Shown piece after piece: positions 10,291 to 58,277 of a stretch of DNA of 64,000 nt. The stretch lies in IMG/VR virus record IMGVR_UViG_3300001846_000239, positions 1 through 64,000 of that record. One strand, 5' to 3'. The DNA is from a virus. Made by a program: the position numbers and the translations under genes. The notes under the pieces are model-generated. The model had not been told where the DNA came from. It saw nothing but the letters and a program-made list of their open reading frames with translations, and did not search any database. The stretch's first letter is position 1; each line of letters begins with the position of its first letter.

Positions 10291-10944
10291 ATGAAACTTA
10301 TAGCAGAATATATGGAAAGTGACCTAGAGGTCATTTCAGAAAAAGTTAACGGTAAAGATAACCTCGTTATTGAGGGTATTTTTATGCAAGCCGATTCTAA
10401 AAATAGAAACGGTAGAGTATACCCAAGAGAAATTTTGGAAAATGCCGTTAATAAATATGTAACCGAACAAGTAAATACTGGTAGAGCTGTTGGGGAGCTG
10501 AATCACCCTGATGGTCCTACTATTAACTTAGATAAAGTTTCACATAAGATTACTGAACTCAAATTTGACGGAAGTAATGTTATAGGAAAAGCATCAATCT
10601 TGGAAACACCTATGGGTCAGATCGTAAAAGGTCTACTTGAAGGTGGCGTTAAGCTTGGTGTATCAAGTCGTGGTATGGGAAGTCTTGTGCAAAAAAATGG
10701 CGCTATGTATGTGAAAGATGACTTTATGTTGTCCACAGTAGATATCGTTCAAGATCCTTCAGCTCCAGAGGCATTTGTCAATGGTGTTATGGAAGGTGTT
10801 GAATGGGTATGGAATAACGGCGTACTTTGCCCGCAAGAAATTGAAGAAATTGAGACTGAAATCAAGGAAGCTCGAAACATGAGGTCAGCCGATGTCGAGA
10901 TCAAAGCTTTCAAGAATTTCCTCTCTAAACTTGTAAATTCTTAA
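10291..10944 (+). CDS. 21: Prohead core protease gp21
   Basis: 217 residues from the ATG at 10291, chosen because the upstream in-frame part lies inside gene 67 and this ATG begins the conserved MKLIAEYMES. Protease signatures are His72 in GELNHPDGP and Ser125/126 in GVSSRG, as in the herpes-assemblin-like T4 prohead protease. It cleaves scaffold, capsid and internal proteins after (L/I)-x-E, which matters for the leader array at 47-57 kb. Confidence 0.93.
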   Translation: MKLIAEYMESDLEVISEKVNGKDNLVIEGIFMQADSKNRNGRVYPREILENAVNKYVTEQVNTGRAVGELNHPDGPTINLDKVSHKITELKFDGSNVIGKASILETPMGQIVKGLLEGGVKLGVSSRGMGSLVQKNGAMYVKDDFMLSTVDIVQDPSAPEAFVNGVMEGVEWVWNNGVLCPQEIEEIETEIKEARNMRSADVEIKAFKNFLSKLVNS

Positions 10945-10957
10945 TAGGAGAATAATT

Positions 10958-12061
10958 ATGTCATTAGACGAAATCAAAAATGATGAATTAGTCGAAGACG
11001 TATCAGAAACTGAAGAGCTTGAAAACGAGGAGCTCGTTGAAGACGAACAAGTTCAAGACGAAGAAATCGTAGAAGCTAAGGACGAGGATGAAGACGAAGA
11101 GGAAGAAGTCACTGAAGATTCCGATGAAGAAGAGGAAGATGAAGAAGACGAAGAGCCTGTAGTTGAAATGCCTAAGACTAAAGCTGCCATTATGGCGTCA
11201 GTAAATGATATGGTCAAAAAGGCTAAAAAAGTGGATGCACAAAAGATCTACGCTCAAGTCTATAAAGTAGTCAATGCTCCTGATGTTGAACCTGAAAAGG
11301 TTGTTAAAGATCCAAATGAATCAGTTGATGTAAGTCATATTGATTATCAAGAAGATCTTGAAACATTGGTTGCAGAAGAAGCTACTTTGTCAGACGGTTT
11401 CCAAGCGAAAGCTGGAATTATTTTCGAAGCTGCTTTAAAATCTAAAGTAGGTGCGGAGATTGAGAGACTAGAATCTGAGTACGTTCAAAACCTTGAAGAA
11501 GAAGTATCTGAAATCAAGTCTGATCTAGTAGAAAAGGTAGATTCTTACCTTAACTATGTGGTTGGTAACTGGATGGAAGAGAATAAAGTTGCAGTTGAAA
11601 CTGGTCTTAGAACCGAAATCGCTGAAGACTTTATGGCTTCTTTACAATCAGTGTTCAAAGAGCACTATATTGAGGTTCCAGAAGGTAAAGTTGATCTGAT
11701 TGACGAATTGTCAGAGCAGGTTGCTGAACTGGAAGAGTCTTTAAATAAATCAACAGAAGAAAATATCAAACTAACTGAGTCTGTTTCTAATCTAGAAAGA
11801 GCTGAGATTGTAAGAAAAGCTTCTGCTGGGCTAGCATTGACTGAAGCTGAAAAGCTTGCATCTTTGGTAGAAGATATCGATTTTGATTCAGCTGAATCTT
11901 TCGAAATGAAAGTGAATGTTGTTAAAGAATCATACTTCAAATCTGAAGCACGAGAATCAGTTGATGAAGCTCAAACCTTAGTTGGTACTGATCAGGCGGT
12001 TGCCGATATCAGTGATGTTATGGCTAGATACACATCTGCTATTTCAAAATATAACAAATAG
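10958..12061 (+). CDS. 22: Prohead scaffold core protein gp22
   Basis: 367 residues. The N-terminal ~70 residues are almost entirely Glu/Asp/Val and the rest is alpha-helical coiled-coil-like, as expected for the T4 gp22 scaffold, which is degraded by gp21 during maturation. It lies between protease and capsid genes. The C-terminal MARYTSAISKYNK is the usual conserved end in T4-like relatives. SD AGGAG precedes the start. Confidence 0.92.
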   Translation: MSLDEIKNDELVEDVSETEELENEELVEDEQVQDEEIVEAKDEDEDEEEEVTEDSDEEEEDEEDEEPVVEMPKTKAAIMASVNDMVKKAKKVDAQKIYAQVYKVVNAPDVEPEKVVKDPNESVDVSHIDYQEDLETLVAEEATLSDGFQAKAGIIFEAALKSKVGAEIERLESEYVQNLEEEVSEIKSDLVEKVDSYLNYVVGNWMEENKVAVETGLRTEIAEDFMASLQSVFKEHYIEVPEGKVDLIDELSEQVAELEESLNKSTEENIKLTESVSNLERAEIVRKASAGLALTEAEKLASLVEDIDFDSAESFEMKVNVVKESYFKSEARESVDEAQTLVGTDQAVADISDVMARYTSAISKYNK

Positions 12062-12081: not shown

Positions 12082-13437
12082 ATGTTTAACGCAGACAGAA
12101 ACTTAATGGAAAAGTGGGCTCCGGTTCTTGAGCACGCAGACGTTCCATCAATTGAAGATAGTCACAAAGCAGCTGTTACAGCTAGACTATTAGAGAACCA
12201 AGAAATCGCAGCTAGAGAAGAAGCTATTGCTAAGTCAGGAACCTTCATCGGTGAAGATGTTGCTGCTAACGCAACTGGTGCTAATGTAGCTGAGTTTAAC
12301 CCTGTTCTTATCTCTTTGGTAAGAAGAGCTATGCCTAACCTTATCGCTTATGATATCGCAGGTGTACAGCCTATGACTGGTCCTACCGGTCTAATCTTCG
12401 CTATGAAGTCTCAGTATGTTGCCAGTGACGGTACTAAAACTGAAGCTTTGTTCGATGAAGCTAACACTGCATTCTCTGGTGACACTACTGTTACTCAAGA
12501 GCAAGGTCCTTCTGGTCTTGAAACTGCAGCTGATGACGGTGACGGTGACCTAGGTACTGGTGAAACAGCTGGTGAAATCGTTTCTGATTACGCTGGTGGT
12601 CTTTCAACTGCTGACGCTGAAGCGTTGGGTACTGGTGGTTCAGGTGGTGCTTTCGGTGAGATGGCATTCAAAATCGAAAAATCAACTGTTACAGCTAAGT
12701 CAAGAGCTCTTAAAGCTGAATACACTATGGAACTTGCTCAAGATCTTAAAGCAATCCACGGTCTAGACGCTGAAGGTGAACTTGCTAACATCCTTTCTTC
12801 TGAAATCCTTGCGGAAATCAACAGAGAAGTTGTTAGAACTGTAAACAGAACTGCTAAGCTAGGTGCTGGTCAGTCAAGCGTTGCTGTTAAAGGTATCTTT
12901 AACCTGCACACTGACAGCGATGGCAGATGGTTGGCTGAAAAAGCTAAAGGTTTGATTATTCAAATCGAAAGAGAAGCAAACCAAATTGCTAAAGAAACAA
13001 GAAGAGGAAAAGGTAACTATGTAATCTGTTCTTCTGACGTTGCTTCAGTACTTGCTGCTTCTGGCATGCTTGATTACAGCCCTGCACTTTCTACTAGCTT
13101 GAACGTAGACGATACTGGTAATACTTTTGCTGGTGTTCTTAATGGTAAGTTCAAAGTATACGTTGATCCGTATGCTGGTGGTACTAACCAAGACTACGTA
13201 ACTGTTGGTTACAGAGGTAACACTCCGTATGACGCTGGTGTATTCTACTGCCCATACGTACCTCTAACCATGGTTAAAGCAATTGGTGAAGAAGACTTCC
13301 AGCCAAGAATCGGTTTCAAAACTAGATATGGCATGGTTGCTAACCCATTTGTTGCAACTGACGGTACAGTTGGTGGTGACAGAGCTAACCCATACTTTAG
13401 AATCTTTAGAGTAGACGGTATCATGCAAAACTCATAA
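12082..13437 (+). CDS. 23: Major capsid protein gp23
   Basis: 451 residues with the T4 gp23 landmarks: N-terminal RNLMEKWAPVLEH, PVLISLVRRAMPNLIAYDIAGVQPM, and C-terminal QPRIGFKTRYGMVANPF and NPYFRIFRV. A gp21-type processing site, I56-G57-E58 before Asp59, fits removal of an N-terminal propeptide; T4 cleaves after residue 65. It is followed by a UUCG-loop terminator. GC-richer third positions and a strong SD (AGGGGAA) fit very high expression. Confidence 0.96.
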   Translation: MFNADRNLMEKWAPVLEHADVPSIEDSHKAAVTARLLENQEIAAREEAIAKSGTFIGEDVAANATGANVAEFNPVLISLVRRAMPNLIAYDIAGVQPMTGPTGLIFAMKSQYVASDGTKTEALFDEANTAFSGDTTVTQEQGPSGLETAADDGDGDLGTGETAGEIVSDYAGGLSTADAEALGTGGSGGAFGEMAFKIEKSTVTAKSRALKAEYTMELAQDLKAIHGLDAEGELANILSSEILAEINREVVRTVNRTAKLGAGQSSVAVKGIFNLHTDSDGRWLAEKAKGLIIQIEREANQIAKETRRGKGNYVICSSDVASVLAASGMLDYSPALSTSLNVDDTGNTFAGVLNGKFKVYVDPYAGGTNQDYVTVGYRGNTPYDAGVFYCPYVPLTMVKAIGEEDFQPRIGFKTRYGMVANPFVATDGTVGGDRANPYFRIFRVDGIMQNS

Positions 13438-47019: not shown

Positions 47020-47059
47020 TATAAATAGTATTGTACAAATTCTACTGGAGTGTTATAAT
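47020..47059 (+). promoter_or_regulatory. Overlapping late and early promoters at the head of the leader-protein array
   Basis: Late-type TATAAATA at 47020-47027, followed by TGTACA (47032-47037), a 16-nt spacer and TATAAT (47054-47059). Early transcripts would start at about 47066, the A of the first ATG, so they may be leaderless. No SD lies at normal distance from the ATG. Confidence 0.65.
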
Positions 47060-47065
47060 ACTACT

Positions 47066-48430
47066 ATGAAAAGTTTTTTATCTTTTGAACCGTTAAACGA
47101 GGCGTCTAAGTTACAACCTAGTCAGCTAAAGAAACCGAATGCTGCAACTGGTGAAGCTCGGATCGATATCCTAGCAAGACTTATTCGAGATGGAAAGCCT
47201 CTTGAATTAGCTAAAGGCGGAACCTTTACTGTAACTGAAGTTGAAGATGCCTTGGCGCAAATTGAAATCTTTAAAAAACTTGGTAAAGCATTTAATCTCC
47301 ACGGAGACGGTAAAACAATTTCTACTTCCGAACTAGCCAAATCATCAGTATTTGGTGGCGGAAGTGGTGCAGGCGGTGGTACATTAAATACAAAAATCAC
47401 CGAATCACATCAGTGTGTTATATGTCAAGCAGTACTAGATCATGGTGTTCAGTCTAAGGAATACTTCGAAGATCCAAACGTGCTTAAAGATGCATATAAA
47501 AAAGTTGAAGTAGATGCATCCCTTGATGAAATTATGTCAGTTGATGAGACGTGGTTTCATTCGTCATATGAATCCGCTATATTACTTCTTAAAGAAGGTT
47601 ATATTAACAAAAACCAAGTATTCCACAGAAATAGTAAACTGATGAATTTAGTCTATGCACAGAAAAATATCGCATATAAAAATTCTGATCAGAAACCTGT
47701 TAAAGATGATAAGTGGAATCCAGGTGATATATGGGCAATTGAAAAAGGATTTAATGTAAAAGATCTAAACATAGATTCTATTGCCGGTTATAACAAATCA
47801 TTATTACAAGCTTTCGTTGATAGAAAACTAGTTGGTATATCACTCAAGCTTGTGAAAAAGAAAGCAAAAGCTAAAGTATATAATACACAAATTCCCCCCG
47901 ATACAGATGATCATAAGTTAGAAAGAATCACATTCCAAGGCGATAAGCGTGGAACTTTCTGGTCAAATAAAACAGGAACAGTTTTCTTCGATTCTGGAAA
48001 AATGGATTTCAGAGCCGGAACGCTAGGCGGTGCAATCAAAGCAGAAATTATTCTGAAAACAGCACGCGGTGGTGGTGCAGGTTATGGTGTAATGCTAGAT
48101 GCGGCTAAGCAAGTATTTAGAAAAACTATACCTACAAATAAAGCTATAAATAGAACAGCAAAAGATATTACTAAAAATAATAAAAGAGCACTTAGTGTCT
48201 TTTGGAAGCTATATAGTCATTTTTATAAAAACGACACTTATGAAAACTTTGAGAAAGAAATCAGTAAGAAAGATGTCTATTGGATCGGAGCCAAAATGCA
48301 AAGCTTGTATGTTTTGTATTATGTAGATACAAATACTGGCCCGAAAGCAAATAGATTTATTACTAAACTTGTTAATTACGCTGGATCTAAATTAGAAGAT
48401 TCTAGTGTATATGTTAAGGTGTATGAATAA
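47066..48430 (+). CDS. Large internal-protein candidate with capsid-targeting leader (454 aa)
   Basis: 454 residues. The start MKSFLSFEPLNEA resembles the T4 capsid-targeting leader, with an L-N-E cleavage site at Glu12. The middle contains VFGGGSGAGGG, a Cys pair (HQCVICQ), and long alpha/beta stretches (HRNSKLMNLVYAQKNIA, WNPGDIWAIEKGFNVKDLN). The WNPGDIWAI and Gly-rich SLKLVKKK-type segments recall large conserved proteins of marine myophages, but no enzyme class is recognised. It is first in the array. Confidence 0.65.
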   Translation: MKSFLSFEPLNEASKLQPSQLKKPNAATGEARIDILARLIRDGKPLELAKGGTFTVTEVEDALAQIEIFKKLGKAFNLHGDGKTISTSELAKSSVFGGGSGAGGGTLNTKITESHQCVICQAVLDHGVQSKEYFEDPNVLKDAYKKVEVDASLDEIMSVDETWFHSSYESAILLLKEGYINKNQVFHRNSKLMNLVYAQKNIAYKNSDQKPVKDDKWNPGDIWAIEKGFNVKDLNIDSIAGYNKSLLQAFVDRKLVGISLKLVKKKAKAKVYNTQIPPDTDDHKLERITFQGDKRGTFWSNKTGTVFFDSGKMDFRAGTLGGAIKAEIILKTARGGGAGYGVMLDAAKQVFRKTIPTNKAINRTAKDITKNNKRALSVFWKLYSHFYKNDTYENFEKEISKKDVYWIGAKMQSLYVLYYVDTNTGPKANRFITKLVNYAGSKLEDSSVYVKVYE

Positions 48431-49674
48431 TGAGATCATTTAAAAATTACGTACCGTTACAAGAAGCAGCAAAAAATACTCATATGACTCATATCGAGGA
48501 TTTGATTCTTGACGGTGGTGTTAAGGGGGCGCGCCAAGCTATCATCGCACTCAGGTCGTTGCGAGATATGTTACAAGGTAACGCAAAATCTGCAGTAGAC
48601 GTTACAGTCAAGTGGGACGGTGCCCCCGCCGTATTTGCGGGTGAAGATCCAGAAACTGGAGAATTCTTCGTTGCGAAAAAAGGAATCTTTGCAAAGAATC
48701 CTAAGATTTATAAATCCCATGCTGATATTGATGCAGATACAAGTGGCGATCTAGCTAAAAAATTAAAGCTTGCATTTGATAACCTAAAGGATTTAGGTAT
48801 TAAAGGAGTTATTCAAGGTGATTTTATGTTCGACTCCTCAGATTTAAAAAAGGAGAAGATAAATGGAGTTACTCATATTGTGTTTCATCCTAACACTATT
48901 GCCTATGCAATACCTGTTGACAGTCCTCTTGCTAAGGAGATTAGATCAGCTAAGGTCGGAATTGTTTGGCATACTACATACTCAGGAGCAACATTCGAAA
49001 CGATGAGAGCTGAGTTTGGAAGAGAAATCGTTCCAAAATTAAGAAAATCTAAAAGCGTATGGATGCAAGATGCAACATTACCCGATCTATCTGGTACTGC
49101 TACATTGACAAAAGCTGAAACTGACGAACTCAATAAGAACCTATCTAATGCTGGTAAAATGTTTAAGAAGATTGCAGCTAGCACATTGAAAGATATTGAA
49201 TCGAATAAAGAGCTCAATATGATTATTAATATATACAATAATCGTAAGGTAAGAGAAGGTCAAAGAATCACGGATACAAAGAAACATGCAACCGGCCTTA
49301 TTATGTTTGTGCAAGATCGTTATCAAAAAGAAATCGATAAAAGATCAAGTCAAGCTGGTAAAGATGTACAAATTGCAAAAAGAGACGAATTACTTAAGTT
49401 TTTTGATAAAAAGAATCTAAAAAACTTGCAAAATGTGTTCGATTTGCAAAATTTTGTTATTGATAGCAAATTAATTATTATAAATAAACTAAACAAACTG
49501 AACAAAATTGGGACGTTTGTCAAAACTAAGTCCGGATTTAAGGTAACCAACCCAGAGGGTTTTGTTGCCATAGATCGTATGGAAGGTGGAGCAGTTAAGC
49601 TTGTTGATAGATTAGAATTTTCTACTAACAACTTTAGCAAAGATATTATAAAAGGTTGGGACAATCCTAACTAA
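48430..49674 (+). CDS. RNA ligase-like nucleotidyltransferase with capsid-targeting leader
   Basis: 414 residues. Leader MRSFKNYVPLQEA with L-Q-E (Glu12). Motif I VKWDGAP has Lys61-W-D-G64, the K-x-D-G nucleotidyl-Lys site of ligases; GDFMF (130-134) resembles a motif III/IIIa block; EGFVAIDR (376-383) with VKLV at 389-392 mirrors RNA ligase 1 motif IV EGYVA and motif V (F)K-x-K. It is probably a covalent nucleotidyltransferase; substrate (RNA, tRNA or DNA ends) is unknown. It overlaps the previous gene by 1 nt. Confidence 0.6.
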   Translation: MRSFKNYVPLQEAAKNTHMTHIEDLILDGGVKGARQAIIALRSLRDMLQGNAKSAVDVTVKWDGAPAVFAGEDPETGEFFVAKKGIFAKNPKIYKSHADIDADTSGDLAKKLKLAFDNLKDLGIKGVIQGDFMFDSSDLKKEKINGVTHIVFHPNTIAYAIPVDSPLAKEIRSAKVGIVWHTTYSGATFETMRAEFGREIVPKLRKSKSVWMQDATLPDLSGTATLTKAETDELNKNLSNAGKMFKKIAASTLKDIESNKELNMIINIYNNRKVREGQRITDTKKHATGLIMFVQDRYQKEIDKRSSQAGKDVQIAKRDELLKFFDKKNLKNLQNVFDLQNFVIDSKLIIINKLNKLNKIGTFVKTKSGFKVTNPEGFVAIDRMEGGAVKLVDRLEFSTNNFSKDIIKGWDNPN

Positions 49675-49691
49675 TGGGAACCGAGGATCAG

Positions 49692-50075
49692 ATGAAATCT
49701 TTTAAAGAGCACAGCGCAGAACTATCTGAAGAAAGCGTAGACTTCTCTGAAGCTATGTCTTTGCAGCATAGAATGAAAATGAAAGCTGCATTCAGAAAAA
49801 ATAAAGCAAAGATTGCGCTAGGTAAAAAGAAAGCCGAACGTAAATTAGCGACTCCAGAAAAGCTTCAAAAACGAGCCGAGAGACACGCTCGTGATTTACT
49901 AGTTAAGAAAATCCTTAAGGATAAAGATAAGAGTGATCTATCTTATGCAGGCCGTGAAGGTATCGAAAAGAAATTAAAGAATAAAAAAGCAGCAATCAAA
50001 AAGATTGCTAGAAAACTATTACCTCAAATTAAGAAGGCTGATAGAGCTAAATTAAAACAAAAAGGTGGTGAATAA
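49692..50075 (+). CDS. Highly basic internal-protein candidate with capsid-targeting leader
   Basis: 127 residues from the ATG at 49692, with GAGGA 4 nt upstream; the in-frame ATG at 49674 gives an 18-nt longer, less leader-like start. Leader MKSFKEHSAELSEES contains L-S-E (Glu13). The mature part is Lys/Arg/Ala-rich and helical (ARDLLVKKILKDKDKSD, KKLKNKKAAIKKIARKLLPQ), fitting a DNA-bound internal head protein. Confidence 0.65.
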   Translation: MKSFKEHSAELSEESVDFSEAMSLQHRMKMKAAFRKNKAKIALGKKKAERKLATPEKLQKRAERHARDLLVKKILKDKDKSDLSYAGREGIEKKLKNKKAAIKKIARKLLPQIKKADRAKLKQKGGE

Positions 50076-50079
50076 TATT

Positions 50080-51393
50080 ATGGAATTTAAGAGTTTTAGT
50101 GACTATTTGACGGAACAAAAGGGTGAAATTACTTTTGTATTTGGCCGATTTAATCCACCTACGACAGGACATGAAAAGCTTTTCGAGAAACTAAAGAAAG
50201 TTTCTGGAGGGTCATATCGAATATACGCGTCAAAATCGCAAGATCCAAAAAAGAACCCACTACCATTTAAAGTAAAAATTAAGTTTATGCGCAAAATGTT
50301 TCCTAAGCATGCGCGAAACATTATGGCTGATGCAGATGTAAGAACTGTATTGGATATTGCAGTAAAGCTTTATGATCAAGGGTTTACTAAAGTCCAAATG
50401 GTTGCTGGTAGTGATAGAGTAAAAGAATTTGATACACTATTAAACAAATATAATGGTGTAAAAGCAAGACACGGTTTCTATAATTTTGAAGAAGGTGTTA
50501 AAGTTATTTCAGCTGGCGAAAGAGATCCAGACGCTGAAGGTGTTGCTGGTATGTCGGCCTCAAAATTGAGAGCCTTTGTTGCCGCAGGTGATCTACAAGG
50601 ATTTGCTGATAATTCATTAGAAATTCCAGGTGATGGAATACAAACCTTATACTATGCCTTAAGAAAAGGCATGGGCCTCAAAAAAGAATCAACGAGAAAG
50701 CACATAGAATTACAACCAGTTTCTGAACATAGAGAAAAGTTTGTAGAAGGTTCTCTATTTAAAGCCGGTGATGAAGTTGTGTTAAAAGAAACAAATCAAG
50801 TTGGTATTATCGAAAGATGCGGAACAAACTTTCTTGTAGTTGAGTTCGGTCAATGGAAAAAGAGAGTCTGGTTAGATCAAGTCGAACTTGTAGAAAAGTG
50901 CGGTAGTGATCATAAGAAGCCGGCTAAAGAAGATAAAGAACCACAAAAGCGCAAAGCTGCATATCATAAAGATTTAAGTAAATCTACTCAAGATAAGCGT
51001 CAAGCTCATTTCAATAAGCAAGCAAAAAAAGATGACGATGATCCTAGTGCGTATAAACCTGCACCAGGTGATGCTCAAGCAAAAACAAAGCCATCTAAAC
51101 ATACTAAAAAATATCAACAAATGTTTGGTGAAGAAACTCTTTCACTGGCTGACTTTTTACTTGATGAAGGCCAGGCTGATGCAGCATTAAAGAAAAAAGC
51201 TGAAAAGACTGGTATGCCATTAGGTATTCTAAGAAAGGTATTTGATAGAGGTGTTGCTGCATGGAGAACAGGTCATAGACCTGGAACAAATTCAATTCAA
51301 TGGGGATTAGCGAGAGTTAATTCTTTTGTTACTAAATCAAAAGGTACCTGGGGCGGGGCTGATAAAGACCTTGCTGCTAAAGTAAGGAGTTAA
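50080..51393 (+). CDS. NMN adenylyltransferase-like protein with capsid-targeting leader
   Basis: 437 residues from the ATG at 50080. Leader MEFKSFSDYLTEQ (L-T-E, Glu12). FGRFNPPTTGHEKL (T-x-G-H) and GMSASKLRAFV (S-x-S-x-x-R) are nucleotidyltransferase motifs, as in NadM-like enzymes. A KOW-like barrel follows (GDEVVLKETNQVGIIERCG). The C-terminal KKKAEKTGMPLGILRKVFDRGVAAWRTGHRPGT is a recurrent phage domain (DUF5824-like). Starts further upstream (50065) lack the leader pattern. Confidence 0.7.
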   Translation: MEFKSFSDYLTEQKGEITFVFGRFNPPTTGHEKLFEKLKKVSGGSYRIYASKSQDPKKNPLPFKVKIKFMRKMFPKHARNIMADADVRTVLDIAVKLYDQGFTKVQMVAGSDRVKEFDTLLNKYNGVKARHGFYNFEEGVKVISAGERDPDAEGVAGMSASKLRAFVAAGDLQGFADNSLEIPGDGIQTLYYALRKGMGLKKESTRKHIELQPVSEHREKFVEGSLFKAGDEVVLKETNQVGIIERCGTNFLVVEFGQWKKRVWLDQVELVEKCGSDHKKPAKEDKEPQKRKAAYHKDLSKSTQDKRQAHFNKQAKKDDDDPSAYKPAPGDAQAKTKPSKHTKKYQQMFGEETLSLADFLLDEGQADAALKKKAEKTGMPLGILRKVFDRGVAAWRTGHRPGTNSIQWGLARVNSFVTKSKGTWGGADKDLAAKVRS

Positions 51394-51394
51394 A

Positions 51395-52012
51395 ATGCAA
51401 AGGTTTAAAGATATTAAAGAATTAAAAGGTATAGTTGAAAATTACGACTATATCAACGAAATGACTGATACTCAACTTGACGAGTATGTTAGAGGTTTAA
51501 GCGAAGAACAGCTTGACGAATTAATCGGTAGGTTGGTAAAAGGCGTTGGTAGACTAGCGGCTAAAGGTGCTAAAGCTGGTGGTAGCCTAGCAGTTAAGGG
51601 AGCCAAGGCCGGAGCCAAAAGAATGTCTGCTGACGGTAGAGCCGCTGCTGCTGAAAAGAAAGCTGCTAAACTAGAAAAGAAAAGAAAAGCTTTAGAGCGA
51701 ATCCAAGCTGCGCGTGATAAAATCAGAGCAGAAAAAGAAGCTATTAAAAAGAAAAAAGATTCAATGCCACCAAATACTTTGGCTAAACTAAGAGCGAAAC
51801 TAAAGCAAAAAGTTTCTAAAGTAAATGATGCAGAAAATAAACTAAAAGAATATAAAGAAGAAGACGAGGAAGAAGTAGAAGAGTCTTCAGCTTCATGGGC
51901 TAAGTCTTTAGAGAAGATCGCTAAGCAGAGACAGCTAGATAAAATCTCTGATAAAGATAAAGAAACCTTAATGAAGATTGCTGCAATGATGGCTAAAGAA
52001 AAGAAGAAGTAA
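51395..52012 (+). CDS. Basic/helical internal-protein candidate with capsid-targeting leader
   Basis: 205 residues. The leader MQRFKDIKELKGIVEN offers I-K-E (Glu9) and I-V-E (Glu15). The middle is Gly/Ala/Lys-rich (LAAKGAKAGGSLAVKGAKAG), followed by a long Lys/Glu coiled coil and an acidic EEDEEEVEES stretch. The DEYVRGLSEEQLDELIG helices resemble those of scaffold-associated proteins. SD AAGGAG precedes the ATG. Confidence 0.6.
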   Translation: MQRFKDIKELKGIVENYDYINEMTDTQLDEYVRGLSEEQLDELIGRLVKGVGRLAAKGAKAGGSLAVKGAKAGAKRMSADGRAAAAEKKAAKLEKKRKALERIQAARDKIRAEKEAIKKKKDSMPPNTLAKLRAKLKQKVSKVNDAENKLKEYKEEDEEEVEESSASWAKSLEKIAKQRQLDKISDKDKETLMKIAAMMAKEKKK

Positions 52013-52013
52013 T

Positions 52014-52250
52014 ATGAAATCTTTTAAAGAACAAGCTAATTTAGATGAAGCTCCATTAGTCATGAAAGACTTAGATATGGTTAAGACTTTATTTCATAAA
52101 ATTGAATCAGACTTAGCAAAAAATGTAAGATCCAATAAAAGTGAAAAGAACTGGCCTATTCTAAAGCAATTAGCTAGTATTGCAGGTTATGGTATTACTA
52201 AAAAAGGCCAGACTTCAGGCAAGTCTTACAGATATGATTTAAAAAAATGA
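52014..52250 (+). CDS. Small internal-protein candidate with capsid-targeting leader (78 aa)
   Basis: 78 residues. Leader MKSFKEQANLDEAPL with L-D-E (Glu12). The remainder is basic with a helix (MVKTLFHKIESDLAKNVR) and a Gly/Lys tail (GITKKGQTSGKSYRYDLKK). It overlaps the next gene by 4 nt. Function unknown. Confidence 0.6.
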   Translation: MKSFKEQANLDEAPLVMKDLDMVKTLFHKIESDLAKNVRSNKSEKNWPILKQLASIAGYGITKKGQTSGKSYRYDLKK

Positions 52251-52765
52251 TTACGTTTAAAGACTACATTACTGAGCAAAAAAAGATTAAGTGGCTTAAA
52301 AAGCCCGATGGCTATATTGGTAATAATAAAAAAGTATTTAAACACGTTTCTTCAGATGGTAAGTTTGAGATTCGTTTATCTGGTATGGATAGTTCTCGTA
52401 AGAACAAAGATGGTAGTCAGAAAGTAATGCCTACATTGTTTGATATGAGTGGCCATACACCAAGGCATCCAGTTACAGCATATAAAAATGTAGCTGCAGC
52501 TAAGAAAGATGCTCAAATATGGGCAGATAGACATTGGACTATTACTGAAGGCGAAGGTAAATATAAAGGCGAAACATGGGAAGATGGTTATAAAAGGCGA
52601 GTTGTAAAAACAACCGATCCTGAGCATAAAGAAAAAGGATATAATTGGAGAATCAAAGGCAAAGAAAGACCTGAGATTTCAATTAAATTATATAAACAAA
52701 AACCAGATTTTGCTGAATTTAAAAAGCAAATGAAGCGAGTTGCGGGGCACGAATTCGGTGGATAG
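52247..52765 (+). CDS. Internal-protein candidate with capsid-targeting leader (172 aa)
   Basis: 172 residues. Leader MITFKDYITEQ with I-T-E (Glu10), nearly the T4 MKTYQEFIAEA form. The rest is basic, Lys/Trp/Gly-rich (YIGNNKKVFKHVSSDGKFEIRL, then TITEGEGKYKGETWEDGYKRR) without a recognised domain. It starts overlapping the previous stop (ATGA). Confidence 0.6.
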   Translation: MITFKDYITEQKKIKWLKKPDGYIGNNKKVFKHVSSDGKFEIRLSGMDSSRKNKDGSQKVMPTLFDMSGHTPRHPVTAYKNVAAAKKDAQIWADRHWTITEGEGKYKGETWEDGYKRRVVKTTDPEHKEKGYNWRIKGKERPEISIKLYKQKPDFAEFKKQMKRVAGHEFGG

Positions 52766-53426
52766 TTTTAAAGAACATTATGATATAATGGAAGGTGTTA
52801 ATGATCCTGCTATATTTAAAGCAATATTTTTAGCAGGTGGCCCAGGAAGCGGTAAATCGTTTGTTGTGGGTAAAACATCTTTGATGGCATTAGGATTTAA
52901 ATTAATTAATTCCGATGATGCCTTTGAAAAAGGTTTGAAAAAAGCTGGATTGACAATGAATCCAGAAGATATATTTTCAGTTCAAGGCCAGGAAGTAAGA
53001 GCTAAAGCGAAAGCGCTTACTGGTAAAAAAATGAATATGGCTTTGAGAGGAAGAAACGGCATTGTAATCGATGGTACTGGTAAAGACTATGCTAAGATTA
53101 AAAAGCAAGTTGATATGCTAAGAAATATCGGTTATGCTGTTCATATGATTTTTGTAAATACAGATTTAGAAACAGCTTTAGACAGAAATCAGTCTAGACC
53201 AAGAAGTCTACCTGATGCGGAAGTCGAAAAGATGTGGAAAAATGTACAAAAGAATATCGGTAAATTCCAAGGGCTATTTAGGAATAGACTGATTATTGTT
53301 GATAACTCTAAGGGAGCAGATATTGAAACTGCAACTTTAGAAGCTTATAAAGATATTATGGCATGGTCAAAAAGACCACCCGAAAACGCAATAGCAATTA
53401 AATGGATAAAGAGTCAAACAAAATGA
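52758..53426 (+). CDS. P-loop kinase with capsid-targeting leader (PNK/zeta-toxin-like)
   Basis: 222 residues from the GTG at 52758, which restores a leader VDSFKEHYDIMEG (I-M-E, Glu12). Walker A AGGPGSGKS at 26-34, INSDDAFE (acidic acceptor region), GIVIDGTGKDYAKIKKQVDML, and a lid-like NQSRPRSLP. It could phosphorylate polynucleotide ends, nucleosides or another small target; T4 Pnk and zeta toxins have similar folds. It overlaps the previous gene by 8 nt. Confidence 0.65.
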   Translation: MDSFKEHYDIMEGVNDPAIFKAIFLAGGPGSGKSFVVGKTSLMALGFKLINSDDAFEKGLKKAGLTMNPEDIFSVQGQEVRAKAKALTGKKMNMALRGRNGIVIDGTGKDYAKIKKQVDMLRNIGYAVHMIFVNTDLETALDRNQSRPRSLPDAEVEKMWKNVQKNIGKFQGLFRNRLIIVDNSKGADIETATLEAYKDIMAWSKRPPENAIAIKWIKSQTK

Positions 53427-53632
53427 AAAATTTTAAAACAATAAGAGAAGCCTTGAAGAATCCTTACAAAGGAAAACCAGAACGTGATCTAAAGCGCAAG
53501 CTCGATTCCTTTGAATCGCAACTTCAAGACTTAATTAAAAAGAGTCGAGGACGTCAGCGAAGAGAAATCGAAGGTGAAATCCGAGATATGGAAACAAAAG
53601 TGCAACAGGTTAGAGCTGCACTAAAGGATTAA
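53423..53632 (+). CDS. Small coiled-coil internal-protein candidate
   Basis: 69 residues from the ATG at 53423, which overlaps the kinase stop (ATGA). Leader MKNFKTIREAL with I-R-E (Glu9). The rest is a charged helix (LDSFESQLQDLIKKSRG, then REIEGEIRDMETKVQQVRAAL). Function unknown. Confidence 0.55.
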   Translation: MKNFKTIREALKNPYKGKPERDLKRKLDSFESQLQDLIKKSRGRQRREIEGEIRDMETKVQQVRAALKD

Positions 53633-53636
53633 TATA

Positions 53637-54005
53637 ATGCATTCTTTTTTAGAACATATAGAAGAGAGGTTTGGTCTATATGAAGGTGTTCATGTACCAT
53701 TGGAACAACCAATGATTGAAATCGAAGAGCAAGAGCTGAATAAGCCAAAACGCTCTAGCGGTAAAAAGAAGTATGTAGTATATGTTAAAAATCCTAAAAC
53801 AGGGAATATTAAGAAAATAGAATTTGGGGACGAAAAAGGTGGTCTTACTTCAAAAATTAACGATAGAGAAGCAGCTAGAAACTTCGCATCACGACATAAC
53901 TGCGATACGAAGACAGATAAATTATCTCCAGGATATTGGGCTTGCAGATTGCCTAAATATGCGAAAGACTTGGGACTTAAAGGCGGTGGAAACTATTTTT
54001 GGTAA
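53637..54005 (+). CDS. DUF5872-like protein with capsid-targeting leader
   Basis: 122 residues. Leader MHSFLEHIEERFGLYEG (I-E-E, Glu10; L-Y-E, Glu16). C-terminal KKYVVYVKNPKTGNIKKIEFGDEKG, then FASRHNCDTKTDKLSPGYWACRLPKYAK and a Gly/aromatic end follow the DUF5872 pattern seen in many giant viruses and phages. No catalytic role is known. It overlaps the next gene by 47 nt. Confidence 0.65.
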   Translation: MHSFLEHIEERFGLYEGVHVPLEQPMIEIEEQELNKPKRSSGKKKYVVYVKNPKTGNIKKIEFGDEKGGLTSKINDREAARNFASRHNCDTKTDKLSPGYWACRLPKYAKDLGLKGGGNYFW

Positions 54006-54276
54006 GCCATATTGGGAAAACGGAGAAATTCGTATCTTCGACCCTACGGTTGAGGATAGCGAATTTGTTTGGCATAGAGATGATGAAAACAGAGAAATAG
54101 AGATTTTAGAAGGCGAGGGTTGGCAATTCCAACTTCAAGGTTGTTTACCTTGGCTTTTAAAAAAGGGTATGGTATTTAGAATTACTAAATTAGAATATCA
54201 TCGATTAATAAAAGGCGTTACGCCACTAAAATGTAGGGTGTGTAGATATGACCACAGCAGCACAACAACGGGCTGA
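53959..54276 (+). CDS. Cupin-like small protein
   Basis: 105 residues from the ATG at 53959; upstream in-frame codons lie fully inside the previous gene and are unlike the family. SEFVWHRDDENREIEILEGEGWQFQLQGCLPWLLKKGMVFRITKLEYHRLIKG has the cupin-like order W-H-x-D...E-G-x-G-x-x-F-Q...L-x-x-G...Y-H-R-x-I-K-G that recurs in marine T4-like phages. It may bind a metal or small ligand. No leader is visible. Confidence 0.6.
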   Translation: MRKTWDLKAVETIFGKPYWENGEIRIFDPTVEDSEFVWHRDDENREIEILEGEGWQFQLQGCLPWLLKKGMVFRITKLEYHRLIKGVTPLKCRVCRYDHSSTTTG

Positions 54277-54547
54277 ACAAGCGGCAAGACTTGACAGAAT
54301 CGAAGAAAAAATCGATAAAATGTCAGACGTTATTATTTCTTTAGCAAGAGCTGAAGAAAGAATTGCTACTATGGCCGAATTTGGTAAACAACAAGGAGAG
54401 CAGATTCTAACTCTTATAAATAGAGTTGATAGGCTTGAAATATTGGTGAGGGAGAATGCCCAAACCGTAAACGTAATTAATAAATTATTCTGGATAGTAA
54501 TTGCTGGCGCCGCCACAGCTATCACAGGAATGCTTTTCATACAATAG
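54248..54547 (+). CDS. Coiled-coil protein with C-terminal membrane anchor (XhlA-like)
   Basis: 99 residues. A coiled coil (RLDRIEEKIDKMSDVIISLARAEERI, then LINRVDRLEILVRENAQTVNVI) ends in one hydrophobic helix (LFWIVIAGAATAITGMLFIQ). It looks like XhlA/hemolysin-type phage proteins that accompany holins. It overlaps the cupin-like gene by 29 nt. A lysis role is possible but not shown. Confidence 0.6.
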   Translation: MTTAAQQRAEQAARLDRIEEKIDKMSDVIISLARAEERIATMAEFGKQQGEQILTLINRVDRLEILVRENAQTVNVINKLFWIVIAGAATAITGMLFIQ

Positions 54548-54557
54548 GAGAACTAAT

Positions 54558-55268
54558 ATGAAACTTAAAGATGCAAAAACTTTGAGCATTGCTGAGGCCG
54601 TTAGCGATGTACTCGAAGGTAAAGTAAAAAAGGAAGAAGTAAAATATCCACACGATATGTTTCATCCAGAAACTGGTGAGAAAGAAGTAGCCAAAAACGA
54701 AGCAGAGCATAAAGCCCTTGCTAAGAAAGGTTACACTCACGAGAAACCAGAAGTTGACGAAGTAGCAGAGCCTAAAGCTAAAGGTGAAAAAGACTTTAAA
54801 GACGCTCATGTTGCAGCTGTGTCTGGTGAAAAAGAAGATGGTACAGTTGTTAAAGAAGCTGAAGAAAAAGAAGAAGAAGAAGAAGAAGAAGTTGAAGAAG
54901 CTAAATCTAAGTTTTCAAAGTCGCTTCTTAAGAAAGCAAGTGACATCGCTCTTTCAATGAGTGGTAACATGACTGGTGCTGTTAAGAAAATCGAAAAAAT
55001 TAAAAAAGGTTTGTCTGACGACCCAGAAGTTAAAGCTGCATTGCAACTAGCTAACGAAGAAGTAACTAAAGAAATTATGGATGAAGCTTATGCAATGAAT
55101 GAAGCCAAAGATAAAGTTGCAGAAGATAAAGAAAGATATCAAAAATTCTTCCAAAAAGCACTGAAAAAGTTTGGTGTTGATTCACCTGCTCAACTCAAAG
55201 GTGATAAAAAGAAAGAGTTTTTTGATTACGTAGATGCAAACTACGAGGCTGATGACGAAGAAGACTAA
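54558..55268 (+). CDS. Acidic/Lys-rich internal-protein candidate with leader (236 aa)
   Basis: 236 residues from the ATG at 54558 after TAGGAGAA. Leader-like MKLKDAKTLSIAEAV with I-A-E (Glu13, the same tripeptide as T4 IPIII). A very acidic central EEKEEEEEEEVEE run is followed by helices and a C-terminal KKFGVDSPAQLKGDKKKEFFDYVDANYE, a motif that recurs in large virion-associated proteins of marine myophages. Confidence 0.65.
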   Translation: MKLKDAKTLSIAEAVSDVLEGKVKKEEVKYPHDMFHPETGEKEVAKNEAEHKALAKKGYTHEKPEVDEVAEPKAKGEKDFKDAHVAAVSGEKEDGTVVKEAEEKEEEEEEEVEEAKSKFSKSLLKKASDIALSMSGNMTGAVKKIEKIKKGLSDDPEVKAALQLANEEVTKEIMDEAYAMNEAKDKVAEDKERYQKFFQKALKKFGVDSPAQLKGDKKKEFFDYVDANYEADDEED

Positions 55269-55290
55269 AATTATCTGATATAGATAATAT

Positions 55291-55662
55291 ATGATGAAAA
55301 TATTTGACGAGTTGACAAACAGGAACTTTGAGCTCTATGCGTCACAGCATTACAATAACCCGGAATGCTGTGACGTTGAAGAGTTCAAGGAAGATTTAAC
55401 CAGGTTTAAGTATCTAAAAAGATTACTTAGACGCTATGAGCAATCTGGTGATCTGCAAGAGCGATTAATACTAAATCACATTATTGTTATTTTTAATGTA
55501 TTTGGTATTAAAGCAGCAAATAGAATGATTTGGTTCAAAGTAGAACCTGAACATTATTCTACGCTAAAAACATTTTTAGTGTTCTTGCATTATATGCCAG
55601 AGGATTATAAAGTAGAAATCCCTCTAGATAAAAACGTTATTGAGAGGTTAAGGAAAATTTAA
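55291..55662 (+). CDS. Conserved hypothetical protein (123 aa)
   Basis: 123 residues, helical. FDELTNRNFELYASQHYNNPECCDVEEFKEDLTRFKYLKRLL, then QERLILNHIIVIFNVFGIKAANRMIWFKV is a well-conserved marine T4-like phage pattern of unknown function. No leader. It overlaps the next gene by 1 nt. Confidence 0.7.
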   Translation: MMKIFDELTNRNFELYASQHYNNPECCDVEEFKEDLTRFKYLKRLLRRYEQSGDLQERLILNHIIVIFNVFGIKAANRMIWFKVEPEHYSTLKTFLVFLHYMPEDYKVEIPLDKNVIERLRKI

Positions 55663-56255
55663 TGAGTATAGTATCAAGAACAGCTGATTTATTCTATGCG
55701 TTTAGATTCCTAAAGCTATTAGTAACGCCTTGGGAAAAAACTACTGCATTTGAATTAGGCATTATCGATAAAGATGGTAACACCTTAAAGAAAAGCAAAG
55801 ATAGAACTACTTCTCAAGAAAGGTCTGCATATACTGTTTTTCATAGATTAGTATTTAATCTGAAAAGACTATTGGGCAAAGTGCCAGGTGGTTCATCAAG
55901 ATTAGCTACTTATGCTTCGGCTTTGTTTTTAATTAAAGAACATGCTAATCTAACTGAAGATGAAATCAGAGATGTACTAAACAATATATTTGAAGATCTT
56001 GAAGAAACAATTGATCTATCAGAAAGTAGTGCATGGTTTGAAAAGAATAATAAACTTGCGCCAGGAACTTATAAGCTGGTTCAAGAAGTAGCATCACCAC
56101 AAACTGGTGAAGTTATTGCGCATATAAATACTAATGTTAAGGCATTAGATTTTGTAGAACCTCACGGTTCTATATTTGGTTTAAATGTATACCAAGTGGA
56201 ACATACATTAACAAAACAAAAAATACTTATTACGAGTATGGATATAAAAAGATGA
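55662..56255 (+). CDS. Conserved hypothetical protein (197 aa)
   Basis: 197 residues. TADLFYAFRFLKLLVTPWEKTTAFELGIIDKDG and VFHRLVFNLKRLLGKVPGG are conserved in marine T4-like phages; the C-terminal ~60 residues are beta-rich (GTYKLVQEV...GSIFGLNVYQVEH). Function unknown; probably virion-associated because it lies among internal-protein candidates (inference). It overlaps the neighbours by 1-4 nt. Confidence 0.7.
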   Translation: MSIVSRTADLFYAFRFLKLLVTPWEKTTAFELGIIDKDGNTLKKSKDRTTSQERSAYTVFHRLVFNLKRLLGKVPGGSSRLATYASALFLIKEHANLTEDEIRDVLNNIFEDLEETIDLSESSAWFEKNNKLAPGTYKLVQEVASPQTGEVIAHINTNVKALDFVEPHGSIFGLNVYQVEHTLTKQKILITSMDIKR

Positions 56256-56464
56256 AGACATTTAAAGACATGTGGGAAGACGCGGCAGCTACATCAGTAG
56301 CGTCAGGTGACATTGCTTTACCTGCCGATGCAGTTCATGATAAAAAGAAAAAGAAAAAAGATTTGTATGACGGGAGAACGAAAGCCGGTCGTGCGTTCAT
56401 AGAAAGGATATTGGCTAGAAGAAAAGCCGCTGAACAGAAAAGGATCGATAATGAAGAAGTTTAA
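56252..56464 (+). CDS. Small basic internal-protein candidate with leader-like start
   Basis: 70 residues. The start MKTFKDMWEDAAA matches the T4-type leader except that the site would be M-W-E (Glu9) instead of (L/I)-x-E. The second half is very basic (DKKKKKKDLYDGRTKAGRAF, then ILARRKAAEQKR). It overlaps the next gene by 14 nt. Confidence 0.55.
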   Translation: MKTFKDMWEDAAATSVASGDIALPADAVHDKKKKKKDLYDGRTKAGRAFIERILARRKAAEQKRIDNEEV

Positions 56465-56681
56465 TGATATTAGAGAAGACGCTTTTGATAAATCAAAAGA
56501 AAAGAATGTTGACCAACTGAATAAAAAGCTTCAGAGTATGTCTCAGCATATTAACAACTTAGAAAAGTTGGACAAGCAAGGTGAAGGCAAAGGCGAAATG
56601 GCTAAAGAGATTAAAGTCTTCAAATCTAAATTCTTTGAACTGAATAAGGCTTTAGCAAAATTAGAAAATAGATTAGTGTAA
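56451..56681 (+). CDS. Small coiled-coil internal-protein candidate with leader
   Basis: 76 residues. Leader MKKFNDIREDAF with I-R-E (Glu9). The rest is a Lys/Glu coiled coil (LNKKLQSMSQHINNLEKLDKQ, then EIKVFKSKFFELNKALAKLENR). It is the last member of the array, 4 nt before the spanin genes. Confidence 0.55.
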   Translation: MKKFNDIREDAFDKSKEKNVDQLNKKLQSMSQHINNLEKLDKQGEGKGEMAKEIKVFKSKFFELNKALAKLENRLV

Positions 56682-57078: not shown

Positions 57079-57529
57079 TGGATGTAGCTTACTCCAACAA
57101 CCTCCAAGAGAAGTAGAAATAATCACAAAACCGGTTCAAATTGAAATTGTTCAACCGGTAATGCCAAGACCATTAGATTTAAAAGAACCAAAATGGTATG
57201 TAGTTTCTGACTCTGTAATCATTGAAGAATGTATTAGGAATCAAGAAACTAAAGAAAGAGATTGTAAACTGGGTAAGGAAGATTTGTATCCTGAGGGATA
57301 CACATATCTAGACCGGTTTATTGATAGTATAAAAAAGAAGCACGGAGGCGATATTGTATTTGTCGCAATGACTGTTGATGATTATGAATTAATGTCCTAT
57401 AATACTCAGGAAATTAAAAGATATATAAATCAATTAGGTGAAGTTATAGTGTATTACAGGAATGTAACAATAGGTGATGAAGATGCTGGAGCAGTTGAAA
57501 TTAAAGTGGAGAAAAAGGAAGATGAGTAG
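57032..57529 (+). CDS. Outer-membrane spanin lipoprotein candidate (Rz1-like)
   Basis: 165 residues from the ATG at 57032 after AAGGGGG. MQLKMIASAFLVLMISGC is a lipoprotein signal with lipobox I-S-G-C18, followed by a Pro-rich segment (QQPPREVEIITKPVQIEIVQ, then PVMPRPLDLKEP). It overlaps the inner-membrane spanin by 47 nt. Longer than lambda Rz1, with an extra C-terminal domain of unknown role. Confidence 0.75.
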   Translation: MQLKMIASAFLVLMISGCSLLQQPPREVEIITKPVQIEIVQPVMPRPLDLKEPKWYVVSDSVIIEECIRNQETKERDCKLGKEDLYPEGYTYLDRFIDSIKKKHGGDIVFVAMTVDDYELMSYNTQEIKRYINQLGEVIVYYRNVTIGDEDAGAVEIKVEKKEDE

Positions 57530-57530
57530 A

Positions 57531-58277
57531 ATGAAAGATAAATTAACGGTATGGCAAAGGGCAGAGATAGCAGCTAAGTTATCAGCCATTGCTTATATGA
57601 ACCCAAAACCAGCTGAAACTGCATGTAAGAAATTAGGATTTGCGTCAGGAAAGATTATTAGTAGAGACGGTGCAGAGGTACTAATCGCAAAGGATAGAAA
57701 CGATTTGTGGTTTGCTTTTAGAGGAACAGAACCATCAAAACTAAATGATGTGATGGCCGATCTAAAAGTAATTAAAAATACTGCCAAAGCTGGTGGTAAA
57801 GTCCATGGCGGATTTCAAGAAGAAGTCAACGACCTATGGATGGATATTGTAAAAGAACTAGAACATAACGATCAACTTAAGGTAAGAAAAGATGTATACT
57901 TTACTGGTCATAGTCTTGGTGCTGCTATGGCTACCATTAGCGCAACGCGTTATCAACCGGAAGAATTGTTTACGTTCGGATCCCCGAGGGTCGGAGGTAA
58001 ATACTTCATCAAGAATATAAAGTGTGATCATTATAGGTTTATGAACAATAATGATATTGTTTGTAGAATCCCACCGGCTTGGTTGGGTTTTAAGCATCAT
58101 GGAGAAATGATTTATTTCGATAGAAATGGAAGTAGAGCTTTAAAACCAACTTGGGCTGATATGTTTTACGGTATTTTAAATAGCTGGAAAAGATTTAAAT
58201 TCTTTGACGGAATTGTAGATCACGGAATGCCTAATTATGTAAAGGCTATTAAGAAATTTGCTAAGGAAGCAGAATAA
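57531..58277 (+). CDS. Class 3 lipase-like alpha/beta hydrolase
   Basis: 248 residues from the ATG at 57531 (AAGGA 11 nt upstream; ATG 57522 is an alternative). GHSLGAAMATI near residue 126 is the nucleophile elbow; FRGTEP, FGSPRVGG (strand before the catalytic Asp) and DHGMPNYVK (His) complete a lipase_3 triad pattern. It follows the spanin genes and may help membrane disruption or host-lipid use. It overlaps the next ORF by 1 nt. Confidence 0.8.
   Translation: MKDKLTVWQRAEIAAKLSAIAYMNPKPAETACKKLGFASGKIISRDGAEVLIAKDRNDLWFAFRGTEPSKLNDVMADLKVIKNTAKAGGKVHGGFQEEVNDLWMDIVKELEHNDQLKVRKDVYFTGHSLGAAMATISATRYQPEELFTFGSPRVGGKYFIKNIKCDHYRFMNNNDIVCRIPPAWLGFKHHGEMIYFDRNGSRALKPTWADMFYGILNSWKRFKFFDGIVDHGMPNYVKAIKKFAKEAE

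Follow-up and report, generated by a model that had tools for sequence, protein, structure and literature searches.

A block of neighboring genes with T4-type leaders as a candidate head-cargo module in a marine T4-like phage

The 64,000-nucleotide stretch analyzed here (the window; positions 1 to 64,000 of IMG/VR record IMGVR_UViG_3300001846_000239, a 113-kb contig whose remaining 49 kb was also read) contains a block of plus-strand genes at 47066 to 56681, twelve of which start with a leader resembling that of the T4 internal head proteins. We consider it likely, with a probability of roughly 0.86, that this block is a single late-expressed module of head cargo proteins with detachable leaders. 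Packaging of these proteins and their cleavage by the prohead protease gp21, as proposed in the first-pass annotation, are well supported by inference: the leaders match the T4 positions, the Glu before the predicted cut (P1) is conserved, leaders are reused in a modular way, a late promoter and the prohead genes are present, and virion mass spectrometry of S-CREM2, S-SM1, and S-SCSM1 detected homologues or leader-bearing proteins. No direct DNA match to known phages was found.

A T4-type late promoter, TATAAATA (47020 to 47027, plus strand), is located in the intergenic region 46 nt upstream of the first leader gene. The 113-kb contig holds 27 copies of this sequence on the plus strand and 3 on the minus strand; this sequence also stands upstream of the sheath (6225), portal (8517), and gp67-like (10080) genes. 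Since the copy number of the 7-base core of the late promoter is, by itself, not above chance, the promoter evidence consists of strand bias and placement, which argue in favor of a block that would be expressed late, together with the head genes. Genes for gp20, gp21, gp22, and gp23 are all present. Both gp21 (10291 to 10944; Peptidase_S77, 9.3e-44), the presumed leader-cutting protease, and gp22 (10958 to 12061; T4_CASP, 4.2e-64), the scaffold and presumed leader-binding core, were correctly recognized in the same window in the first-pass annotation. The major capsid protein, gp23 (12082 to 13437; Pfam Gp23, 2.7e-144), likewise on the plus strand, has a predicted gp21 site, TFIGE/D (here and below, the slash marks the predicted cut), that aligns with T4 SFLTE/A.

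All 13 starts originally listed for the block are present as open frames, and the T4-type capsid-targeting leader attributed to them holds for 12 of the 13 proteins, 54558 being the exception. In these 12, an aromatic residue at about position 4 is often followed by a second aromatic at position 7 and then by [LI]xE, with a total leader length of 9 to 22 residues; the second aromatic occupies the matching place in 47066, 48430, 50080, and 52247, and His, Gln, Ile, or Met is found in the others. According to the rules described for T4 (PMC9026906), targeting depends on residues 4 and 7 and processing on residues 8 and 10, with propeptides of 10 to 19 residues, and the window leaders fit these targeting and processing rules. 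In relatives, the P1 Glu is nearly invariant while leader length varies: among families with enough relatives, it was found in 26/28 (47066), 64/65 (48430), 27/27 (49692), 24/24 aligned (52014), 17/17 (52758), 31/31 (53637), and 22/23 (56252) sequences and, ungapped, in 50/50 sequences of one further family.

On the basis of this conservation, three of the (L/I)-x-E sites initially assigned were moved and 54558 was removed. The LSE of 49692 is variable in relatives, while E20/A is kept in all 27; the IVE of 51395 was replaced by E22/M, kept in both sequences available (n = 2 only); and the IEE of 53637 is found in 16/31 relatives, compared with 31/31 for LYE16/G. In 54558, the site residue is Glu in just 2/21 sequences, there is no aromatic at position 4, and the sole conserved candidate site is V-L-E20/G. 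P3 deviates in 49692 and 56252. The MWE of the latter, already singled out as an exception in the first-pass annotation, proved to be a conserved variant, with P3 mostly Met but also Gln, Ile, or Val.

The cargo genes, all on the plus strand, begin with that of a phrog_1462 protein (47066 to 48430; 1.9e-37; leader MKSFLSFEPLNE/A, residues 1 to 12, cut at LNE/A), whose homologue SSCSM1_90 is labeled a virion protein. Its structure was modeled with confidence (pLDDT, 87) and yielded no PDB fold match; a PGD...SLK arrangement visible in the alignment had suggested a PD-(D/E)xK nuclease, a tentative assignment that was not adopted. The following gene encodes a DUF6267 protein that bears a KWDG motif (48430 to 49674; Pfam DUF6267, 2.9e-105; leader MRSFKNYVPLQE/A, residues 1 to 12, LQE/A), the leader of which is disordered in the structure model. 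Its invariant KxDG motif hints at a nucleotidyltransferase-type DNA/RNA ligase; however, the fold search was nonsignificant, with no Foldseek match at an E value of ≤0.001 and with archaeal DNA ligases and an NHEJ ligation complex having the top probabilities (0.21 to 0.25) among the matches listed. We therefore did not adopt this assignment, and a ligase-like activity is a lead only. Next are a small basic protein (49692 to 50075; MKSFKEHSAELSEESVDFSE/A, residues 1 to 20, FSE/A), preceded by a GAGG-type ribosome site, and a protein combining a cytidylyltransferase/NMNAT-like domain with DUF5824 (50080 to 51393; phrog_3041, 5.8e-90; DUF5824, 3.8e-16; MEFKSFSDYLTE/Q, residues 1 to 12, FSDYLTE/Q). 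A Lys/Ala-rich protein (51395 to 52012; MQRFKDIKELKGIVENYDYINE/M, residues 1 to 22) has a tentative site, YINE/M, and just one close relative, in contig L056 (MKSFKEHKVLDLTE/MTD).

The block continues with a small conserved protein (APLV...; 52014 to 52250; MKSFKEQANLDE/A, residues 1 to 12, LDE/A), a fusion of two small domains (52247 to 52765; MITFKDYITE/Q, residues 1 to 10, FKDYITE/Q), and a P-loop kinase-like protein of the AAA_33/zeta-like type (52758 to 53426; AAA_33, 6.5e-13; Zeta_toxin, 9.4e-11; MDSFKEHYDIME/G, residues 1 to 12, IME/G), which has a GTG start where many of its relatives use ATG and shares E/G with all 17 of them. A small charged protein (53423 to 53632; MKNFKTIRE/A, residues 1 to 9, IRE/A) keeps E/A in 3/3 sequences despite differing leader length, and it is followed by a small phrog_7595 protein (53637 to 54005; 6.9e-12; MHSFLEHIEERFGLYE/G, residues 1 to 16, LYE/G). 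Finally, there are a short Lys-rich protein (56252 to 56464; MKTFKDMWE/D, residues 1 to 9, MWE/D; P1' Asp in 18/23) and a coiled-coil-like protein (56451 to 56681; MKKFNDIRE/D, residues 1 to 9, IRE/D) with one relative, again in L056 (MKQFKDLRE/D). Similarity of 56252 to a capsid-protein arm, as in a copy like T4 61.1, was too weak to be retained. The earlier suggestion that several cargoes are enzymes is supported for two, the nucleotidyltransferase 50080 and the P-loop kinase-like 52758, with the DUF6267 protein as a nonsignificant lead.

Two of these proteins, 50080 and 52247, are fusions whose halves occur as separate leader-bearing genes in relatives and whose junctions keep a cleavage site. 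In 50080, the leader-like site LADFLLDE/G (residues 356 to 363; 51145 to 51168, plus strand) lies at the DUF5824 junction; an internal leader-like motif is present in 28 of 47 full-length homologues (versus 2.8 after shuffling), nearly always as TFED[FY]..E/ at that same junction, and in phage C48C1 DUF5824 is a standalone gene with the leader MITFKKYLEE/K. For 52247, L006, L008, or L011 encode the two halves separately, both of them behind leaders of their own, and the second half stands alone in L007 (MITFKDYITE/GEGKYKGETWEDG); the retained site at the fusion junction is HWTITE/GEGKYKGE (residues 96 to 101; 52532 to 52549, plus strand).

Published mass spectrometry of S-CREM2 particles (virion protein list from PMC10665884) places the exact leader on 3 of 51 virion-detected proteins and on 0 of 167 undetected ones (P = 0.012), namely, a cytidylyltransferase (MKNFSSFLTE/A), a SAM lyase (MKDFDSFLEE/F), and a kinase (MKRFDAFLTE/E), with near-variant leaders on the virion proteins gp12 (RFASFMAE/A) and gp13 (MKDLHSFLTE/Q). 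The virion cytidylyltransferase of S-SM1 starts with MKKFSAFLNE/A, and homologues of 50080 were detected in virions of S-SM1, S-SCSM1, S-CREM2, and others. As a second, independent proteome, S-SCSM1 gave a nonsignificant result (leader on 1/22 virion versus 1/76 other proteins); with the two proteomes pooled, virion proteins account for 4 of the 5 proteins that have the exact leader (P = 0.011), a result based on small numbers and driven by S-CREM2, not by S-SCSM1 alone. Since SSCSM1_30 has a leader and no virion-protein label, whereas SSCSM1_89, 90, 92, and 93 belong to the virion yet lack a leader, the leader is neither strictly necessary for nor proof of detection. DUF6267 lacks a leader in HTVC008M and several cyanophages. 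The authors of the S-CREM2 study cautioned that such virion proteins might be contaminants. A "Cas9" annotation in S-CREM2 virions, which has no Pfam support, was disregarded. We found no report, for any marine relative, of an N terminus right after the predicted Glu.

Alternatively, the leader might target proteins to the prohead core, with the cargo serving head assembly or DNA condensation and no meaningful injection, an idea compatible with the small size and Lys richness of several cargoes (49692, 51395, and 56252) and with the effect of T4 IPIII on head form. We regard this as rather unlikely, as the enzyme-like cargoes have no obvious role in assembly and, in T4, both Alt and the internal proteins enter the host by injection and function there (PMC9026906, PMC12373910).

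A profile search of 244 related contigs, a check suggested together with the original claim, revealed clear enrichment of the exact T4 pattern, fixed after the window had been seen: 220 ORFs matched on the sense strand, versus 4.3 after shuffling, and 0 antisense. When this pattern was run as a control on 150 kb of T4, it returned ipII, ipIII, 61.1, and one internal false match. The 220 ORFs fall into 23 clusters without BLAST similarity, and the mature window proteins belong to differing Pfam/PHROG families, as expected of mature parts that are otherwise unrelated. This speaks against the view of the common N terminus as a relic of ancestry, through paralogy or one mobile N-terminal segment, with no present targeting function. 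Recombination could indeed have spread leaders among genes that all lie in a single block; however, homologues preserve the Glu and its place beside the mature domain even where the leader otherwise differs, and leader-bearing proteins occur in virions, making such a relic very improbable.

Within the contig, 11 of 16 called genes of the block carry M-x2-[FY]-x2-9-[LIM]xE at an allowed start, versus 0 of 129 elsewhere (Fisher, 4e-13), although this test was not blind, the motif having been derived from the same window set. The start is therefore not equally frequent in other genes, and an origin in translation initiation, base composition (MKxFK arising from A-rich codons just behind the ATG), or chance, while in keeping with the abundance of early Lys and Phe codons in A+T-rich phage genes and with a pattern picked by eye, is hardly credible in light of that absence, of an antisense control at shuffled level, and of conservation that falls on a Glu 9 to 22 residues in, immediately preceding the mature domain.

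Under the cargo-module reading, each protein would begin with a detachable leader of 9 to 22 residues and, while the head is being assembled, would be held at the gp22 core of the prohead through the leader's aromatics at about positions 4 and 7. The protease gp21 would then cut after the Glu of [LI]xE, leaving the mature protein with the DNA, and at infection the cargo would most likely exit with the DNA and act at once in the host, injection being inferred from T4 Alt and the internal proteins. Published results on the particles of a relative agree with this, so such phages probably bring into the host cell a sizeable, ready-made set of proteins that includes some enzymes. More broadly, we see about even odds that the T4-like phages of the sea (Kyanoviridae and their relatives) possess an open-ended module for protein delivery, a late block after the gp41 helicase gene in which any gene could become cargo by gaining a 9- to 22-residue leader and from which fused cargoes would be loaded as polyproteins and separated by gp21 in the head. 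If so, enzymes that act on NAD metabolism, restriction, and phosphorylation would be brought in at the start of infection. Cyanophage virion studies repeatedly report cytidylyltransferase/NMNAT, kinases, or SAM lyase and leave undecided whether these are real cargo; a shared, cleavable head-targeting leader would supply a mechanism as well as a test at the sequence level. It also suggests that abundant marine phages deliver proteins when they infect, provides candidates for early host takeover and counterdefense among unannotated families, and adds new leaders with which T4-type heads might be loaded with proteins.

In the open-access literature, which our search covered, we found no earlier report of a capsid-targeting sequence in marine phages. 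The known cyanomyovirus virion enzymes (NMNAT/cytidylyltransferase, kinase, and SAM lyase in S-SM1, S-SCSM1, and S-CREM2) are homologues of 50080 or leader-bearing analogues, and in S-SM1 and S-SCSM1 the corresponding genes occupy the same genomic interval as the block; the passages of those reports that were consulted note no leader or packaging mechanism. Many packaged ejection proteins whose propeptides are removed after Glu by a prohead protease are also found in the phiKZ-like phages and SPN3US, but these represent a different lineage with a diverged protease. The virion ADP-ribosyltransferase Alt of T4, an injected enzyme whose packaging involves a leader cut by gp21 (PMC9026906), resembles the enzyme-like cargo, whereas its start, MELITELFDE, lacks the aromatic pattern; no Alt homologue was seen here, and cyanomyoviruses are reported to lack alt (PMC2984593). 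Closest in design are T4 IPI, IPII, and IPIII, with leaders (MKTYQEFIAE/A or MKTFKEF...ITE/A; 10 to 19 residues) that share the aromatics at 4 and 7 and the [LI]xE cut, unrelated mature parts, and a gp21 protease in the genome, although no similarity of mature parts between the window proteins and IPI to IPIII was seen. While T4 has three small internal proteins at two loci, a single block here holds about twelve proteins, among them larger cargoes that resemble enzymes; internal cleavage sites are retained, and position 7 may also be His, Gln, Ile, or Met. In summary, the array represents the T4 internal-protein system in a variant that is enlarged and carries enzymes.

Open reading frames were confirmed at all 13 starts in the leader gene block (47066-56681; bare numbers are gene starts in the window) to which the first-pass annotation had assigned a T4-type capsid-targeting sequence (CTS). 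Across the whole contig (145 genes, a single gene-calling rule), the pattern M-x2-[FY]-x2-9-[LIM]xE stood at an allowed start in 11/16 block genes versus 0/129 others (Fisher, 4e-13), with the reservation that the pattern was derived from the block's own proteins and the comparison was not blind; tests were therefore sought on other data. The neighbors 54248 and 55662 lack an aromatic start, and 55291 has one but never [LIVM]xE.

A stricter, T4-spaced pattern ([FY]xx[FYHM][LIMV]xE) returned 220 sense-strand ORFs versus 4.3 after shuffling, and none antisense, in 244 contigs that, having been retrieved via DUF6267, are related to each other and centered on the block. By BLAST, the mature parts fell into 23 clusters that show no similarity to one another, and 17 clusters have at least two members; the cytidylyltransferase and DUF6267 clusters account for 128/220 ORFs. 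As a control, the strict pattern was run over 150 kb of T4, where it recovered gene 61.1 along with ipII and ipIII, gave a single false match inside a gene, and missed ipI, whose 19-residue leader departs from the strict spacing.

The window belongs to a viral contig of 112,994 bases, and the phage collection contained no near DNA match. Encoded in the window are a portal, a prohead protease, a scaffold, and a major capsid protein, all of the T4 type. With the DUF6267 protein (48430) as the query, the closest records were phage C48C1 (56%) and then Methylophilales phages Melnitz (47%), further ones including HTVC008M and cyanomyoviruses; relatives whose taxonomy was read were Kyanoviridae, except Stenotrophomonas phage DLP6.

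Where leader meets mature protein, family alignments showed a near-invariant Glu before the predicted gp21 cut (slash in sequences below): 26/28 for 47066, 64/65 for 48430, 27/27 for 49692, 50/50 ungapped for 50080, 24/24 for 52014, 17/17 for 52758, 31/31 for 53637, and 22/23 for 56252, with 51395, 52247, 53423, and 56451 having too few relatives to be counted. These alignments moved three of the originally proposed sites, to E20/A in 49692, E16/G in 53637, and, tentatively, E22/M in 51395, and removed 54558 as a leader protein. The Lys/Glu-rich product of 54558-55268 (+) has no aromatic leader, and its conserved candidate site is V-L-E/GK at residue 20 rather than the proposed IAE. A cut between Glu and Asp is plausible here, because the phage's own capsid protein has a predicted TFIGE/D where T4 has SFLTE/A. 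Leader length is variable in both systems (9 to 22 residues here, 10 to 19 in T4).

The leaders behave as modules. The fusion protein 52247 has its halves encoded as two genes, with one leader apiece, in two relatives (L006 and L011); a third (L008) has the first half in the same separate, leader-bearing form, and a fourth (L007) has the second half alone as MITFKDYITE/GEGKYKGETWEDG, the junction in the window reading HWTITE/GEGKYKGETWEDG. Similarly, 50080 joins a cytidylyltransferase to DUF5824, which in C48C1 is its own gene with the leader MITFKKYLEE/K. An internal leader-like motif, almost always TFED[FY]..E/ at that junction, occurs in 28/47 full-length 50080 homologues versus 2.8 shuffled; since the homologues share ancestry, this is counted as a single event kept under change.

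By sequence, 50080 is a predicted nucleotidyltransferase of the NMNAT/cytidylyltransferase kind and 52758 a predicted P-loop kinase-like protein. In 48430, KxDG is invariant; fold-search matches were nonsignificant, DNA ligases having the highest probability among the matches listed. The confident structure model of 47066 had no PDB match. The leader falls in disordered regions of the structure models of 47066 and 48430 alike. The other block cargoes have no annotation. In one relative (L069, 4426-5058), a PAP2-superfamily domain follows the exact leader MKKFKQYLKE/D, an unusual cargo if packaged.

Matches to the T4 late promoter, TATAAATA, number 27 on the contig's + strand versus 3 on its - strand. 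One of them is intergenic, at 47020, 46 nt upstream of the first leader gene, and others stand upstream of the sheath, portal, and gp67-like genes; the number of copies of the 7-base core by itself was not above chance in the contig.

Evidence from virions comes from relatives. When the S-CREM2 virion list of PMC10665884 was set against 218 annotated proteins (gp85 left out), exact leaders were found on 3/51 detected versus 0/167 undetected proteins (p=0.012), namely, gp154 (cytidylyltransferase), gp6 (SAM lyase; Pfam, 2.3e-19), and gp14 (kinase-like); the virion proteins gp12 and gp13 have near-variant leaders. The authors of that study were unable to rule out contamination; a leader common to these proteins speaks for their being cargo. 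S-CRM01 has leaders of the same kind on several adjacent genes, including a kinase (MISFDQFLSE/K) that PMC10665884 cites as found in virions, and the S-SM1 cytidylyltransferase, a virion protein, starts with MKKFSAFLNE/A. The picture in S-SCSM1 is mixed: the proteins of the syntenic block (89-93), 47066 homologue included, are labeled virion proteins, but only the NMNAT has a leader, and one leader protein lacks the label. Pooled with S-CREM2, leader proteins make up 4/73 virion versus 1/243 other proteins (p=0.011). S-CREM2 gp12 (L250, 7704-10313) was described in the literature as a virion CRISPR-Cas9 nuclease, an annotation that Pfam does not support; its leader-like RFASFMAE/A lies at residues 18-25, a position kept in S-CRM01 (L254, 10422).

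Several other genes were noted. T4 gene 61.1 (L258, NC_000866, 18966-19130) reads MKTFKEFIKE/DMVAGDSGGNPENISIGTTSGAV, in which a CTS-type leader is joined to a duplicate of the N-terminal arm of gp23 that spans the arm's gp21 site (46% over 37 aa). It adjoins primase gene 61, and the 41-61 interval in which it sits is also the location of the marine arrays. Small proteins that duplicate the N-terminal arm of the mature capsid protein (GFxGxx..GPxAGYDP) are encoded in S-SCSM1 (S-SCSM1_97; L257, 18122-18307) and S-CREM2 (gp160; L249, 8343-9236), both listed as virion proteins, and in S-SM1 (L087, 16319-16867). A short ORF with an acidic tail at 10107-10274 (+) occupies the place of T4 gp67, between portal and protease, as does S-CREM2 gp142; gp67 was reported missing from all cyanophages (PMC2984593). 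Immediately after a spanin-like gene is a predicted esterase/lipase gene (57474-58277, +; phrog_21992, 9.5e-25).

Packaging by a T4-type CTS with cleavage by gp21 is the best explanation (confidence, 0.86), and injection of the cargo would follow by analogy with T4. We found no description of an enlarged CTS cargo system in this phage group in the searchable literature. Compared with the T4 internal-protein system, the system here would be larger, with some twelve cargoes grouped in a single late block, enzyme-like and fused proteins among them.
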